The notes under the pieces were generated by a model that was not told the origin of the DNA, ran no database searches, and saw only the letters and a list, made by a program, of their open reading frames with translations. This document shows, piece by piece, positions 7,906-14,826 of a stretch of DNA of 64,000 nt. Both the position numbers and the translations under genes were made by a program. The stretch spans positions 1 to 64,000 of the forward strand of contig JABDCR010000008.1 of assembly GCA_013288015.1 (NCBI GenBank). Reading direction: 5' to 3'. Position 1 is the stretch's first letter. Each line of letters opens with the position of its first letter. Origin of the DNA: Bacteroidota bacterium (GTDB lineage Bacteria > Bacteroidota > Bacteroidia > B-17B0 > Aurantibacillaceae).

Positions 7906-8160
7906 TTATTCTTCTATCAAGTTCATAATCCAGTTAATCCATCTGAGTATAGTAGATGCTCTCCTAAAATATGTTGTATCGGAATCAATATTATACAAAT
8001 TAGATGATTTCATTAAATTAACAATTTCATCCTTCGATGGAACTCTACTCGTTTCTAAATATAAATCAAGGGTCTTTTTGAAAACCCCATGAGAGATAAT
8101 AAGTTTAACGAATTCAATTTGTCTACTCGCCAAAGAAAGATTAAATATTGGTTCGCCTTC
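7906..8160 (-). pseudogene. C-terminal remnant of a protein cut off at a hairpin repeat
   Basis: The track ORF starts at a TTG, but the frame continues upstream as EGEPIFNLSLA before running into repeat sequence at about 8160, so a longer gene seems to have lost its 5' part. The remaining ~85 residues (ASRQIEFVKLIISHGVF ... FRRASTILRWINWIMNLIEE) look like a folded helical, winged-helix-like C-terminal domain. The RRASTxxxWINWI ending reminds me of a small domain found in proteins of some restriction-modification loci (DUF7226-like), a weak resemblance. It is probably non-functional. Confidence 0.45.
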
Positions 8161-8164
8161 TTCA

Positions 8165-8226
8165 GGGCGAGGACTTGAAGTGTAAAGCCCGACGGCGCGT
8201 GTTTACAAAGCACCGTAACGCCCTAA
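8165..8226 (+). repeat. Dispersed hairpin repeat, copy A (degenerate)
   Basis: The core reads GTGTAAAGCCCGACGGCGC, loop, GCACCG, then TAACGCCCTAA. It is the most decayed of five copies: the stem carries a C/A mismatch and GGAACG has become GTAACG. It ends 2 bp from the stop codon of the minus-strand HTH gene and abuts the truncated gene on its other side. Confidence 0.75.
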
Positions 8227-8227
8227 T

Positions 8228-8527
8228 TTATTTTTTTTTCTTTTTTTCTTTTAAGAAAGCCATTAGGCCATTGTTTACTTTGGTAAGTAAAGCTACTTGC
8301 TGTCGCAGGTGTTCGATTTCTTTATGCAGAGGATCGTACTCGTTGGCGAGTTTGTAATCGATTTTTAGTTTTAGTTTTTTTATTTTTTCTTTAAATACGG
8401 GTTTTATAATTTCTTGTTTGTAGAGGTTATACAATTGTCCGCGCGATATGCCGGTTATATCAATTACCTCATCGATGGTGTAGCTGCTAAAATCAACAGC
8501 TTGTTTGAAAATTTCGCCTTCTCTCAT
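8228..8527 (-). CDS. Small HTH protein with coiled-coil tail
   Basis: This 99-residue protein has an N-terminal helix-turn-helix (~15-40, YTIDEVIDITGISRGQLYNLY) like the MerR or excisionase type. A basic linker follows, then a predicted coiled coil (~65-95, LHKEIEHLRQQVALLTKVNN), and the tail is EKKKKK. It is the last gene of an apparent operon starting at 10538 (18 bp after the Imm_superinfect gene). DNA binding is likely. The target is unknown. Confidence 0.65.
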   Translation of the reverse strand: MREGEIFKQAVDFSSYTIDEVIDITGISRGQLYNLYKQEIIKPVFKEKIKKLKLKIDYKLANEYDPLHKEIEHLRQQVALLTKVNNGLMAFLKEKKKKK

Positions 8528-8545
8528 GATAGTTGTTTTGATTAT

Positions 8546-9637
8546 TTAATTGTTGTTATTTAATATATATATGTTAGCACTGCTGCAATTGTTACAGTTG
8601 GGTGTGTTGCTGTTAAAGCCACGACTTTCGCCGGGGTTAAGCTCATTATCATCAACTACATAAATTTTGTTGGCTTTGATGATTTGGTTTTTTGGGTTTG
8701 TGTATTTTATTTCGGCTTCGATAAATTTAACGGGATAGCCCGCATTGTTTTTAACTACACCCGTGCCCAGTACACTACCATTATTTATACGGTACTGCCA
8801 ATCGACAATTTGAAGGTTATTGGGAAGATCTTCCAGCGCTTCGGTTTTTTGGAGGTCGGTGGCATCGGTGGGAAAAAGAATTTTACCATCGTGAATGATG
8901 AGCAAGTTATAAGTGTCGATTATTTTATATTGGTCGTAATTTTTTTGTACCACTACGCCTACTTTTTGACTAAGCCAAGCACCTTTATTGTTGTGCCCGC
9001 TTATGTTGGCATACACAATATATTGGTTGTTACTTGCACGCTTTATGTTTTGTATGCTATAATGGGCAATTTTTGGGAATATGCTTTGACTGGTTTCTGT
9101 TATATAATTTGCCTGGGTTAAGTTACTATCTATATCGCCGGCCTGCACGCTGTTTAAAAACTGACGGGCAATTGCCTCTTCGCCATAAATGTATTTGGGC
9201 ACTATGTATAAATAGCAGGTTAAACAAATTAGCATGACGAACAACATAATGATTGCCGAAGCCATTTGTAATTTTTGTTTGGTTGATGCTTCAAAGCTTA
9301 ATGCATCCTGAGTTTGGTCGCCTAAAAGTTTTTGTTTTTGTCCGTCGAACTCCTCGTCGGTTAAAATGCCATCTTTACGCAGTTGGTTTAGTTTTTCTAA
9401 CTGGGCAATGGTGTTGGTGTTTATATTGCTTTCGACCTGGCTAAGTTTTTTTTGTTTTTTTATGGCCCGAATAAATAAAATTATCCAACCTAAGATTGTC
9501 CAGCCAAGTAATAGATTGAGGAAAAAATATTTTAATACATGGTGCTTTTTACGTGCCAGAATGGTTGGCAAAAAATAAATTACCAACGACACCAGCAGTG
9601 CTACAAAAAAAACTATCCAAGCGCTTGGTTTAATCAT
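8546..9637 (-). CDS. Imm_superinfect/SHOCT multi-domain membrane protein
   Basis: This 363-residue protein begins with a superinfection-immunity-like two-helix module (~8-62; IYFLPTILARKKH ... FFLNLLLGWTILGWIILF), the PF14373-type pattern related to T4 Imm. Next come a short SHOCT domain (~79-108, LEKLNQLRKDGILTDEEFDGQKQKLL), a third membrane helix (~127-150) and a C-terminal soluble region (~150-363) with two beta-rich parts, predicted outside the cytoplasm. SHOCT modules often act in oligomerisation. It is co-transcribed with two small lipoproteins upstream. Three short paralogues of the first module occur in tandem at 60.96-61.51 kb. Confidence 0.7.
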   Translation of the reverse strand: MIKPSAWIVFFVALLVSLVIYFLPTILARKKHHVLKYFFLNLLLGWTILGWIILFIRAIKKQKKLSQVESNINTNTIAQLEKLNQLRKDGILTDEEFDGQKQKLLGDQTQDALSFEASTKQKLQMASAIIMLFVMLICLTCYLYIVPKYIYGEEAIARQFLNSVQAGDIDSNLTQANYITETSQSIFPKIAHYSIQNIKRASNNQYIVYANISGHNNKGAWLSQKVGVVVQKNYDQYKIIDTYNLLIIHDGKILFPTDATDLQKTEALEDLPNNLQIVDWQYRINNGSVLGTGVVKNNAGYPVKFIEAEIKYTNPKNQIIKANKIYVVDDNELNPGESRGFNSNTPNCNNCSSANIYILNNNN

Positions 9638-11183: not shown

Positions 11184-12641
11184 TTAGTATACAAAAACTC
11201 CATCATCTTCATCGCTATGTGAGCCTAAAAGATAAGTTGGTTTCTCGTTACCAAAGCGATAAAAGTTGTAATCATCTACAAAGGCGTAGCAGAGAAAGTA
11301 GCGAGTTAGGTCGATAAAATGCCCGAAGGGTTGATAGGTTTTACCGGTATCTTTATCTCTTATGGTTTGTTTATCAATTTTTCCGTTGGCATCCTCTTGG
11401 GCGTTTTCAAAATCCCTGATAGTTGTTTTGCAAGATTGGTTTACAAAAAAATGCAGGTCGTTAAAATTTTCTTCGAGCACGGTATTAAAAAAATCCAATG
11501 ACTGACGAACGGATGGATGTGATTTCAATACACGCAATTCGGGATTAAACTGCCGTAGCTCGTGTTGCATAATAAAAAACAAATGCTCGCCTGCTTGCAG
11601 TTTTACATCTTCTTTTTGTGATGCCGGGTCGCCATAGAGATACATTTTCTCGCGATGGTGACGGTAACGCCGTTTAATTTCATTGGCTACCCAGGAAGTT
11701 TTATTGTTTGGGTGATGCGCGGCAATTTCATCAATCAAATAAATATTTTTATCATCTACCTGAAAAATGCCGCAGGGAAAATATGGGTTTACGTTTTCAT
11801 CGAAACTTATATGCAATGCTAAATTTGGGTTGTAGGCATAATGCCCCACATGTTTTTCAAACTTAAAACATTTTAAAACCTCGCCCCCGCTTATGCGTTT
11901 GCCCCACAAACCTAAGGTGTACACCTGATAGTAATAAGGGTTGGTGGCCTTATAACTTTCGTGCCTGGCAATGCGCGCCTTGCTGCAATGCGTTAAATTA
12001 TTGTGGTAGGTGGTGTGGGTAGCGGTTATGCTGCGGTAATAAGTACTGCCATCGGGCATGGTGTAGGCCATGTTATCGGTAAAACTATATTCATTTTTTG
12101 GGATGTGGCGGGCAAAGTAATTTTTGTAGAGCCAAAAATCTTTATAATCGCCAAGGCACTCGGGGTTAAAAGAAAACCACTCTTGCACATCGCCAAAATT
12201 ATTGCGCAGGGTTGTGGAGGCAATTATGTAATCAGCCTCGCTTAGCTGGTTACCCTCTTCGTACCAAGCGCAACTTGGGTTGCTGATAGATTTTAGTTTG
12301 CCCGCATCATCGCAACCACGCGCCAAAAATTTGTTGCCGTTAAAACAATGTATTTCTAAAGGTTGTTGTTTAAAGGTAAAGAGGTGGTCGATTTTCCACT
12401 CGGTGCAAATATCTTTTATTAATTGCCACTGACTATCTTTTATACTTTCAAATGTTTTTTTAAACAGAATGCAACGAAAATATTTTTGCTGCAGACAATC
12501 TAAAATTAATTTTTGTGCAATGAAGTAGGATTTGCCACTATCTCTGCCACCCCACAAAAAATTGAGGCTTGCCTTGCTGTGCAATAGCGGGCGGTAGCAG
12601 GGCAGAAACATATCCTCCGCTATTTGCAGGTTTACATGCAT
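11184..12641 (-). CDS. Phage terminase large subunit (PBSX/phage_terminase_3-like)
   Basis: This 485-residue DNA-packaging motor protein is apparently intact. The ATPase half has Walker A GGRDSGKS (~31-38) and Walker B CAWYEEGNQL (~130). The nuclease half shows acidic residues in HISFDENVNPY, YLYGDPAS and GHFIDLTRYFL, spaced as in RNase H-like terminase nucleases. The 72-residue gene upstream overlaps its start. No portal, capsid or tail genes follow, so it is an isolated packaging gene in bacterial surroundings, probably a prophage relic or domesticated gene. Confidence 0.88.
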   Translation of the reverse strand: MHVNLQIAEDMFLPCYRPLLHSKASLNFLWGGRDSGKSYFIAQKLILDCLQQKYFRCILFKKTFESIKDSQWQLIKDICTEWKIDHLFTFKQQPLEIHCFNGNKFLARGCDDAGKLKSISNPSCAWYEEGNQLSEADYIIASTTLRNNFGDVQEWFSFNPECLGDYKDFWLYKNYFARHIPKNEYSFTDNMAYTMPDGSTYYRSITATHTTYHNNLTHCSKARIARHESYKATNPYYYQVYTLGLWGKRISGGEVLKCFKFEKHVGHYAYNPNLALHISFDENVNPYFPCGIFQVDDKNIYLIDEIAAHHPNNKTSWVANEIKRRYRHHREKMYLYGDPASQKEDVKLQAGEHLFFIMQHELRQFNPELRVLKSHPSVRQSLDFFNTVLEENFNDLHFFVNQSCKTTIRDFENAQEDANGKIDKQTIRDKDTGKTYQPFGHFIDLTRYFLCYAFVDDYNFYRFGNEKPTYLLGSHSDEDDGVFVY

Positions 12642-12859
12642 CAGTCGGCTTGCTTTTTTAGGATGGATATGTTTACGGTGTTTGGCTCCAGTAACTCCTG
12701 TAAATCATCGGCGGTAATAATTTTTACTGCCAGGGGGTAAAAGGCCGATGGGTTTGCTTTGCCCCATGCCAAGAGGCTTGACTTAGGGTCGGTTTGCATT
12801 TGGGCAAAGGCAAATTCAAAAGCTTCTTTAAGGGTGGGTGGTTTTTTATCATCAGACAT
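12641..12859 (-). CDS. Small protein paired with terminase (possible small-subunit role)
   Basis: It is 72 residues from ATG 12859; the track's TTG start is 6 bp earlier. Sequence runs MSDDKKPPTLKEAFEFAFAQMQTDPKSSLLAWGKANPSAFYPLAVKIITADDL and ends in a hydrophilic tail. It overlaps the terminase start by 1 bp (ATGA type), so they are translationally coupled. The position suggests a terminase accessory or small subunit, but it is too short to show the usual HTH and the call is positional. Confidence 0.55.
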   Translation of the reverse strand: MSDDKKPPTLKEAFEFAFAQMQTDPKSSLLAWGKANPSAFYPLAVKIITADDLQELLEPNTVNISILKKQAD

Positions 12860-13036
12860 GGGCAAAATTTATATTACCCAAAAGTACAAATAATTTGGAA
12901 AAGTACATTGTGATAGTTTGGTACATTTTAGCATTATGAGGGAAGCATGATTGAAAAATTATAAAATAAAGATTTCTCCCTACAGTAGAAATGACAAGAG
13001 ATTTAAACCTATATTTACTACACAAAAAAATGTTTT

Positions 13037-13825
13037 ATGGAAATTAAATACGAGCAAAAATATATAGCTTTTTTAGATGTATTAGGCTTTTCTTCTTTGG
13101 TTGAAAGTAACAATAAGGAAAAATTAGAAAAATATTTTTCTATTCTTGAAGAAGCTTTTAAACACTTGGATAATGATAGAAAAAACATAAAGAAGCTAAT
13201 TATTAGTGATTCCATCATACTTACGACTCCTGATACGGAAGAAAATTTTTTACACATAATAACTGCGATAAGGTTTTTACAAGCAGCATTAGCTCCACAT
13301 GGTATTTGGATTAGGGGTGGCTTCACATTTGGTGATGTGTATGATGATAATGATAAAAATATAATTGTAGGAAAAGGCTATATAAGAGCTTATTTATTAG
13401 AGCAACAGGCAGTTTATCCAAGAGTAATAATTGACCCAAGTATTTTAGCTAAGAAGAATTTAAATAGAAAACAGTTTTACGAGAGATACGATGACCACAA
13501 GTTAAGAAATCCTTTAAGTTTTAAGAGAATCCACGATTATGATTTTTATAATCATAAACGTTATACGCAAGATGATGCTATATTTATATGTTATGCAAGT
13601 ACAGTAATCGTACCTTGTTTTAATTGTGACGATATTGAAAGCATTGAAGATACATATGGTTATATAAGAAAAGGATTATATGGTGAGCAAAAACATTATC
13701 ATAAATATTTGTGGCTTAAAAAATATTTTCTTGAATGCTTAGAAGAAATAAATATGTATGCTGATAATAATTTCTCACAAAAAGCAAGTTTAGAGAAGTT
13801 AATTAGGGATTTCACCGCCTTGTAA
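13037..13825 (+). CDS. Divergent class III nucleotide-cyclase-like protein
   Basis: This 262-residue cytoplasmic protein carries the strand order of class III cyclases. FLDVLGFSSL (~12-21) resembles the first metal-Asp strand (F-D-x-x-G-F), IISDSIIL (~55-62) resembles the second metal-Asp hairpin, WIRGGFTFGDVY (~93-104) resembles the GIHxGxV strand, and GKGYIRAYLLEQQA resembles the GxxVNxAARLE helix. The C-terminal third (~145-262) is unlike cyclases. Whether it cyclises NTPs is unknown. Base composition is more AT-rich than its neighbours, suggesting transfer. It is transcribed away from the terminase pair. Confidence 0.5.
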   Translation: MEIKYEQKYIAFLDVLGFSSLVESNNKEKLEKYFSILEEAFKHLDNDRKNIKKLIISDSIILTTPDTEENFLHIITAIRFLQAALAPHGIWIRGGFTFGDVYDDNDKNIIVGKGYIRAYLLEQQAVYPRVIIDPSILAKKNLNRKQFYERYDDHKLRNPLSFKRIHDYDFYNHKRYTQDDAIFICYASTVIVPCFNCDDIESIEDTYGYIRKGLYGEQKHYHKYLWLKKYFLECLEEINMYADNNFSQKASLEKLIRDFTAL

Positions 13826-13829
13826 ATCT

Positions 13830-14429
13830 TTATTTTTTAGTTGAAGTGTAATCATCATCCACCCCTTTGCCTTTAAGAATGTAGGGAATATATTTTTCAA
13901 TGCGTGCCTCGCGGGTTTTGGCTTGTTTGGCTGATGAAAAATAAAGCAAATAGCCTCTTTGTCGCCCGGGGGTTAGGGCCTTAAAAGCTGCTTTTAAAGT
14001 AGCGTCTTTAGCCAGTTTATTTTTAAACTCAGCAGGCATAGTAAATTCGGCGGTCTTTTTTAATTCTACTTTTAAACCTGCTTTTTCAACTTCTATGGCT
14101 TCAAAAATATAAGCCTTTAAAGTGGTTTTCATCTTCACTATTTCCTGTAAACCAGTAAACCTAATTTGCCTTGCCGCTTGTACATTTTTTGTTTGCTGTA
14201 TTAAAATGCCAGCAGCATCCTGCAACAAAACACCTTTCATAAACAAAAGCGCACAGTAGTTTTTAAACCCATGTATTAAAACAATGTTTTGCCCGTTATA
14301 ACTGTAACAAGGGCAACCCCACCTTAATTCTTCCGTCAGCCCACAATCAAGTATAAGGCTTCTTAATGTTTTATACTCTTGTTGCCACGGGGTGGGTTTA
14401 GTAAAGTAAAAATCAACTTTTGGGTTCAT
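13830..14429 (-). CDS. YdeI/OmdA-family protein with DUF1801 domain
   Basis: It is a 199-residue cytoplasmic protein. The N-terminal DUF1801 domain (~1-110) has EELRWGCPCYSYNGQNIVLIHGFKNYCALLF. The C-terminal YdeI-type tail (~130-199) has PAEFKNKLAKDATLKAAFKALTPGRQRGYLLYFSSAKQAKTREARIEKY, the recurring bacteriocin-protection/YdeI ending. It is the last gene of the ArsR-SRPBCC-DoxX operon (16 bp after DoxX). The biochemical role of this family is not settled. Confidence 0.85.
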   Translation of the reverse strand: MNPKVDFYFTKPTPWQQEYKTLRSLILDCGLTEELRWGCPCYSYNGQNIVLIHGFKNYCALLFMKGVLLQDAAGILIQQTKNVQAARQIRFTGLQEIVKMKTTLKAYIFEAIEVEKAGLKVELKKTAEFTMPAEFKNKLAKDATLKAAFKALTPGRQRGYLLYFSSAKQAKTREARIEKYIPYILKGKGVDDDYTSTKK

Positions 14430-14445
14430 GCTATTTGCTTATTAA

Positions 14446-14826
14446 TTAATTGGAAACTATTTTTCTATCAGCAGGTCTAAAGTACCAAGACAAAATTATG
14501 AAAACAGTTTGGAAAACAGGCCCCATAATTGATTTTGCAGCAAAATCGCCAATAAACAAATGCGAAAGTAAGGCGCCCGTCATTACAAAAAATAAACCTG
14601 CGTAGGCCCACTCTTTAAGTAATTTAAAGCCCGGTAGTAGAATGGCAATAACTGCTAAAATTTTCCAGGTACCAATGATGTAGAAAAAATACGAGGGGTA
14701 ACCCAATGGAATCATTAAATCCATTATGGTTTGTGTGTGCAGTACTTGTTGCAAGCCACTTGCAAACATACCCAATGCCAACAAACTTGTGGCAATCCAA
14801 TAAATTATTTTGTTTCTTTTTTCCAT
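14446..14826 (-). CDS. DoxX family membrane protein
   Basis: This 126-residue protein has four predicted membrane helices (~7-27, 45-65, 72-92, 98-118). It carries the DoxX-like sequence pattern with YWIATSLLALGMFASGLQQ, LGYPSYFFYIIGTWKILAVIAIL and a C-terminal IILSWYFRP. DoxX-like proteins are small quinone- or redox-associated membrane proteins, mostly uncharacterised. It lies 6 bp after the SRPBCC gene in a common Bacteroidota operon controlled by an ArsR repressor. Confidence 0.85.
   Translation of the reverse strand: MEKRNKIIYWIATSLLALGMFASGLQQVLHTQTIMDLMIPLGYPSYFFYIIGTWKILAVIAILLPGFKLLKEWAYAGLFFVMTGALLSHLFIGDFAAKSIMGPVFQTVFIILSWYFRPADRKIVSN

Follow-up and report, generated by a model that had tools for sequence, protein, structure and literature searches.

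A lone accessory gene of the class III nucleotidyl cyclase fold with an invariant predicted metal site and without the Asn/Arg pair of working cyclases

Class III cyclase folds in phage defence have, to our knowledge, so far been represented by Pycsar. In the Pycsar cyclases EaPycC and AnPycC, the two metal-binding Asp residues are spaced by 44 positions (D102/D146 and D62/D106, respectively), and pyrimidine is selected by F100/R142/Q144 in the former and by F60/K104/F109 in the latter (PMC11224242). Integrons elsewhere are reservoirs of defence genes, as exemplified by the single-gene defence cassettes of Vibrio (PMC12409362).

The window analysed here is a 64,000-nucleotide stretch of a Bacteroidota genome (58% complete), in which a gene at 13037-13825 encodes a small protein whose family has likenesses to both of these systems. 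The features referred to below are the following.

11184..12641, minus strand: intact phage terminase large subunit, a neighbour only (Pfam Terminase_3, 3.5e-35; TIGR01547, 2e-33)
12866..13036, plus strand: upstream spacer of 171 bp, in which no attC-like repeat was found
13037..13825, plus strand: cyclase-fold ORF of the PHROG 23933 family, ATG start, 262 aa (phrog_23933, E 2.6e-25; AlphaFold2 model; Foldseek)
13076..13078, plus strand: codon of Asp14, equivalent of the first metal-binding Asp (AFLDVLGF), invariant in 31/31 aligned relatives
13208..13210, plus strand: codon of Asp58, equivalent of the second metal-binding Asp (IISDSIIL), invariant in 32/32 aligned relatives
13370..13402, plus strand: GKGYIRAYLLE, residues 112-122, with Ile116 and Leu120 where working class III cyclases have Asn and Arg (alignment with PF00211 and PycTM-linked cyclases)
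13469..13822, plus strand: C-terminal part, residues 145-262, mostly helix in the model (mc6b83d8344a3)
13830..14429, minus strand: OmdA/DUF1801 protein, a neighbour only, 4 bp downstream and convergent, present in 11 of the 13 genomes searched

The ORF reported in an earlier note is confirmed on the plus strand with an ATG start and 262 codons, and the four motifs quoted there are all present: FLDVLGFSSL at residues 12-21, IISDSIIL at 55-62, WIRGGFTFGDVY at 91-102 and GKGYIRAYLLE at 112-122. A chance ORF can be rejected, as the longest stop-free run in 500 shuffles of the local sequence was 143 codons and none reached 262.

No family in Pfam, NCBIfam or PADLOC matches the 262-aa protein (for PADLOC, none at E values up to 1), and its sole significant profile match is PHROG 23933 (E 2.6e-25, residues 4-143), a family with no recorded function that is thus the only label the protein carries. 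Sequence searches of the PDB returned chance matches only, whether with the single protein or with a profile of one alignment of relatives (A1). In contrast, an AlphaFold2 monomer model built from a second alignment (A3: 32 relatives at ~20% identity, with rows from genome loci and without plasmid-derived rows) reached a mean pLDDT of 89.2 and a pTM of 0.89, and all 50 PDB matches listed by Foldseek for this model are class III cyclase structures, the best being 2W01 (Cya2; E 9.4e-6). The active sites of class III cyclases form between two subunits. In the model, strand 6-16 is followed by helices, strands 52-56 and 59-65, helix 68-88, strand 91-104, strand 109-111, helix 113-124 and strand 130-132, a predicted order of N-terminal elements that is that of the class III core, with D14 on strand 1 and D58 on the turn between strands 2 and 3; the C-terminal helical part probably occupies the place of the last strands of canonical cyclases. 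Independently of the model, the A1 profile finds a PF00211 protein (L051; 1.4e-12 to PF00211) at E 6.7e-9, and a profile-profile comparison of the family with five cyclases gave E 7e-5 with a modest probability of 62%. Together, the confident model, the PDB matches and the independent profile match to L051 make the assignment to the class III nucleotidyl cyclase fold solid, and the structural check proposed in the earlier note thus recovered the cyclase core.

Compared with the class III catalytic domain (PF00211; Cya2 2W01, CyaC 1WC4, Rv1900c 1YBT), the window protein shares the fold, the two metal Asp, the RhGh..G strand and the G....(A) helix. However, it has no direct PF00211 match, its C-terminal part is mainly helical, and neither the Asn/Arg pair nor a base-selecting Lys and Asp/Thr is present. 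D14 is kept in 31/31 and D58 in 32/32 aligned relatives despite an overall identity of ~20%, which argues for a working metal site, and G17, G94, G112 and A118 are almost as fixed; the predicted metal-nucleotide site thus appears to be under selection. In contrast with this conservation, the transition-state Asn and Arg, which form an N-x3-R pattern on the helix following the strand 4-5 region, are each present in 0/32 relatives: the Asn position is mostly Ile, Val or Ala (Ile116 in the window protein), and the Arg position is Leu (as at Leu120), Glu, Lys, Ser or others. Controls in the same alignment run keep both residues, as VNTAAR, VNIAAR or VNIASR in ordinary cyclases, and as NIASR in a cyclase ORF that adjoins a PycTM ORF (L200). 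Where the Lys and Asp/Thr of base selection would be expected, the window protein has Leu54 and Ile109, and the family as a whole has mostly hydrophobic residues. The absence of Asn/Arg from all 32 relatives makes ordinary cNMP synthesis doubtful, and 3',5'-cNMP formation by the family is judged unlikely from these alignments. What remains of the core elements recognised in the earlier note is only the metal Asp pair and the glycine/alanine framework; GKGYIRAYLLE is devoid of the Asn/Arg that define that element in working cyclases.

The likeness to PycC lies in a small class III-fold protein, encoded in an accessory region, whose D14-D58 spacing is 44 residues as in EaPycC and AnPycC (PMC11224242). 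At the pyrimidine-selecting positions of PycC, the window protein has an aromatic residue at D14-2 (F12), and Leu, Ile and Ile at D58-4, D58-2 and D58+3, positions that are mostly hydrophobic across the family. In contrast with Pycsar, no PycTM or PycTIR effector was found among the neighbours of the ORF, no PycTM (PF18967) was found in its own 58%-complete genome, and no PADLOC model matches; the PycTM-linked L200 cyclase keeps the N...R that the window family is without. PycTM is no commoner in genomes that carry the family (7/28) than in the whole sample (86/395), counts that overstate Pycsar because PF18967 also matches ~400-aa proteins. The latter form a common set clearly longer than the ~170-220-aa PF18967 proteins. 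With no adjacent effector, no PycTM co-occurrence, no PADLOC match and the Asn/Arg missing, membership in Pycsar is rejected; the earlier note was right that no effector gene is adjacent, while its lead towards Pycsar did not survive the comparison.

The ORF has no co-directional partner and no adjacent defence gene. The earlier note had placed it next to phage DNA, which holds for the intact terminase large subunit and a 74-aa ORF that also lies upstream on the opposite strand (together 11184-12865), whereas a scan of the neighbours revealed no further phage structural gene; the terminase itself has no homologue in 12 related genomes. Left of the terminase are lipoprotein-like ORFs and a protein (8546-9637) that combines superinfection-immunity (PF14373) and SHOCT domains with a long C-terminal part and adjoins a small HTH protein at 8228-8527; ORFs beyond about 7.9 kb resemble what we take to be purine breakdown genes. 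On the other side, the OmdA gene is followed by ORFs that are presumably SRPBCC- and ArsR-like, as also adjoin the OmdA gene in one relative. These surroundings place the gene at the edge of an accessory patch. The OmdA neighbour is present in relatives but without the upstream genes of the window beside it, so that no clean site before and after insertion was found.

The distribution of the family is patchy, with matches in 17/297 genomes across the phylum, 28/395 across the class and 2/7 of the genus. A scan of genome contigs with the single protein found no relative. An alignment of close relatives (A5), used to search genome contigs and IMG/VR, added members in Flavobacterium, Pedobacter, Pseudomonas and others, as well as in three IMG/VR contigs; plasmid members occur in Acinetobacter, Sinorhizobium, Sporosarcina, Methylophaga, Rhizobium and Spirosoma, and overall the family reaches across Bacteroidota, Bacillota and Pseudomonadota. 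The best relative (L027, within L061) is 46% identical and belongs to another genus of the same family. PHROG 23933 is a phage-derived family, yet many of the members found belong to chromosomes, plasmids or cassettes and not to phages, and a tblastn search of 50,697 phage records gave no match to the window protein. The GC content of the ORF, 28.6%, is the lowest among 37 long ORFs in the window (mean 37.1%), and this composition together with the patchy distribution supports a recent transfer, as the earlier note had suggested from AT-richness.

Several members sit directly behind defence genes on the same strand: 2 bp after an OLD/AriA-like ATPase in Pedobacter quisquiliarum (L074, identical to L126), ~175 bp after an AriA/PtuA-like ATPase (L125), 43 bp after PDC-M62 A and B (L099), ~90 bp after DISARM-like DrmD/DrmMI (L106) and ~120 bp after Zorya C and D (L104), while the member at L103 precedes DUF4238 and Upx. 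The L104 member (8115-8939) is split by a stop codon and is an apparent pseudogene. No partner gene is constant among the member neighbourhoods examined, and an OLD-type ATPase partner elsewhere in the genome of the window (58% complete) was sought and not found. Among 77 neighbours, 374 PADLOC models matched, versus 45 among 77 control proteins from randomly chosen regions of those genomes. This is a crude control, in which large model sets inflate the counts and so exaggerate the contrast, and in which the random regions also held an AbiEi and a methyltransferase; for these reasons, the association of the family with defence genes is only suggestive.

In L061, the best relative and a second, distant member from the same genome are each the sole ORF above 80 aa between consecutive attC-like sites, which are regular, 174-182 bp long, with TAACGTT...GTTA cores and complementary arms. 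The intergenic gaps of all loci were then compared to look for further members flanked by repeats, and clear palindromic attC-like arrays were also found at L068, L124, L125 and L130, giving five loci in total; the gaps that border the L068 member have matches in 18 and 19 others. The gap-repeat test gave at most 21 at 24 control loci, as opposed to 64-233 at the array loci. Of the four closest relatives whose surroundings are known, three (L027, L124 and L125) are in arrays, the fourth (L126) being the one behind the OLD ATPase. Tyrosine recombinases are present in the L061 genome (G310, the only one searched with the integron integrase profile TIGR02249), with none above the TIGR02249 cut-off, and "attC-type cassette arrays" is therefore the best name for these loci. 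A cassette with a single ORF implies that no genetic partner is required for the protein to act. The family shares with the Vibrio defence cassettes (PMC12409362) the lone ORF between attC sites as vehicle, but it is a different protein, its hosts here are Bacteroidota, and the window copy itself is outside a cassette. An integron cassette around the window copy was rejected, since no attC-like core is found in 12801-14500; the upstream spacer has no repeats of itself, and the downstream gene is only 4 bp away.

We tentatively favour, as a possibility that falls short of being probable, a lone accessory enzyme acting on metal-nucleotides, in which the class III cyclase fold would have been put to a non-canonical chemistry in the service of phage-bacterium or element-element conflict. 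Such a protein would bind a metal-nucleotide at D14/D58 and carry out metal-dependent chemistry on it, either hydrolysis or nucleotidyl transfer, for which the Asn/Arg of 3',5'-cNMP formation would not be needed. It would act without a dedicated partner, and may serve such conflicts by altering the nucleotide pool or by making a signal that is read by a general receptor. Against an enzyme, the loss of Asn/Arg and of the base-selecting residues in all 32 relatives would likewise be shown by a non-catalytic protein, i.e., a nucleotide sensor, regulator or sponge that binds a metal-nucleotide or cyclic nucleotide so as to control a second protein or sequester a signal. Such a binding protein has a parallel in the PDB entry 6yii, a P. 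aeruginosa protein of class III fold described there as a cyclase-like ATP-binding protein, although PMC11224242 counts it as the PycC of clade A. However, two Asp that stay invariant at ~20% identity exceed the conservation usual for a fold that only binds, and there is no constant partner to regulate, which leaves this alternative somewhat unlikely. A functional class III cyclase that has an unusual specificity and whose effector is not linked to it, signalling at a distance in the manner of Pycsar, would account for the fold and for both metal Asp at PycC-like spacing, and three proteins with cNMP-binding domains in the same genome could read its signal; it is nevertheless improbable given that the family has no Asn/Arg, that PycTM is neither adjacent nor in the genome as far as assembled (58%) nor enriched among carriers (7/28 against 86/395 overall), and that two members are single-ORF cassettes without an effector.

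Two further explanations concern the origin and the fate of the gene rather than its chemistry. The adjoining terminase, the phage-derived PHROG as only profile match and the relatives in three IMG/VR contigs would all fit a phage-borne gene that belongs with the terminase, e.g., an accessory or counter-defence gene of a decayed prophage. This is very unlikely, however, because the 50,697 phage records yielded nothing, the terminase is on the other strand and unmatched in the 12 related genomes, and relatives of the ORF occur for the most part at a distance from phage genes, namely on plasmids, within cassettes or in chromosomes. That the ORF is a neutral or decaying cyclase relative without present function might be read from its AT content, the highest among the long ORFs in the window, and from the broken L104 member, but with a frame open at full length, metal Asp invariant across 32 aligned relatives, and relatives across Bacteroidota, Bacillota and Pseudomonadota, we consider it highly improbable. 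Among the options offered by the earlier note (a distant effector, a degenerate fold or something else), a cyclase fold that has been modified and works as a lone gene agrees best with the evidence. A bolder extension of the favoured metal-dependent enzyme, which we regard as unlikely though worth stating, is that the family is a widespread, unnamed lone-gene anti-phage family in which the cyclase fold has been turned to a new metal-dependent nucleotide reaction and which spreads as integron cassettes and as add-ons to defence systems. If true, the same fold with an invariant metal site and without the ring-closing residues would represent a second chemistry or a sensing role for the class III fold. 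The fold is already known; what sets the family apart is that invariant metal Asp, loss of Asn/Arg and a cassette life style occur together, and no paper on a cyclase-fold family of the PHROG 23933 type was found in the open-access library searched.

Some individual loci deserve mention in their own right. The stretch around the L061 members (G310:C1:1812000-1831900) belongs to a Bacteroidota relative of the window's family and is a large attC-type array with about one site per kb; one cassette homologue lies within it at C1:1827766-1828536. L068 (G251:C2:544000-562000) comprises ~18 kb of single genes with nearly uniform orientation, between which stand palindromic repeats, CCTAACGACCTTGCGC...GCGCGGGTTAGG, and looks like an integron array on the chromosome. 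The repeated gaps at L064, L066, L114 and L139 were not convincing as attC. The repeated gap at L098 was rejected as attC, since it holds a tRNA-like 3' end (around 8595-8641, beside a 416-aa member), which suggests an integrative element inserted at a tRNA gene. Finally, in two members of ~600 aa (L035:1444-3246, minus strand, for which Pfam gives no match, and L024:7125-8936, plus strand), the cyclase-like domain is C-terminal and is preceded by a common N-terminal domain of ~290 aa (24% identity, E 5e-10); such a fusion could be a clue to function.
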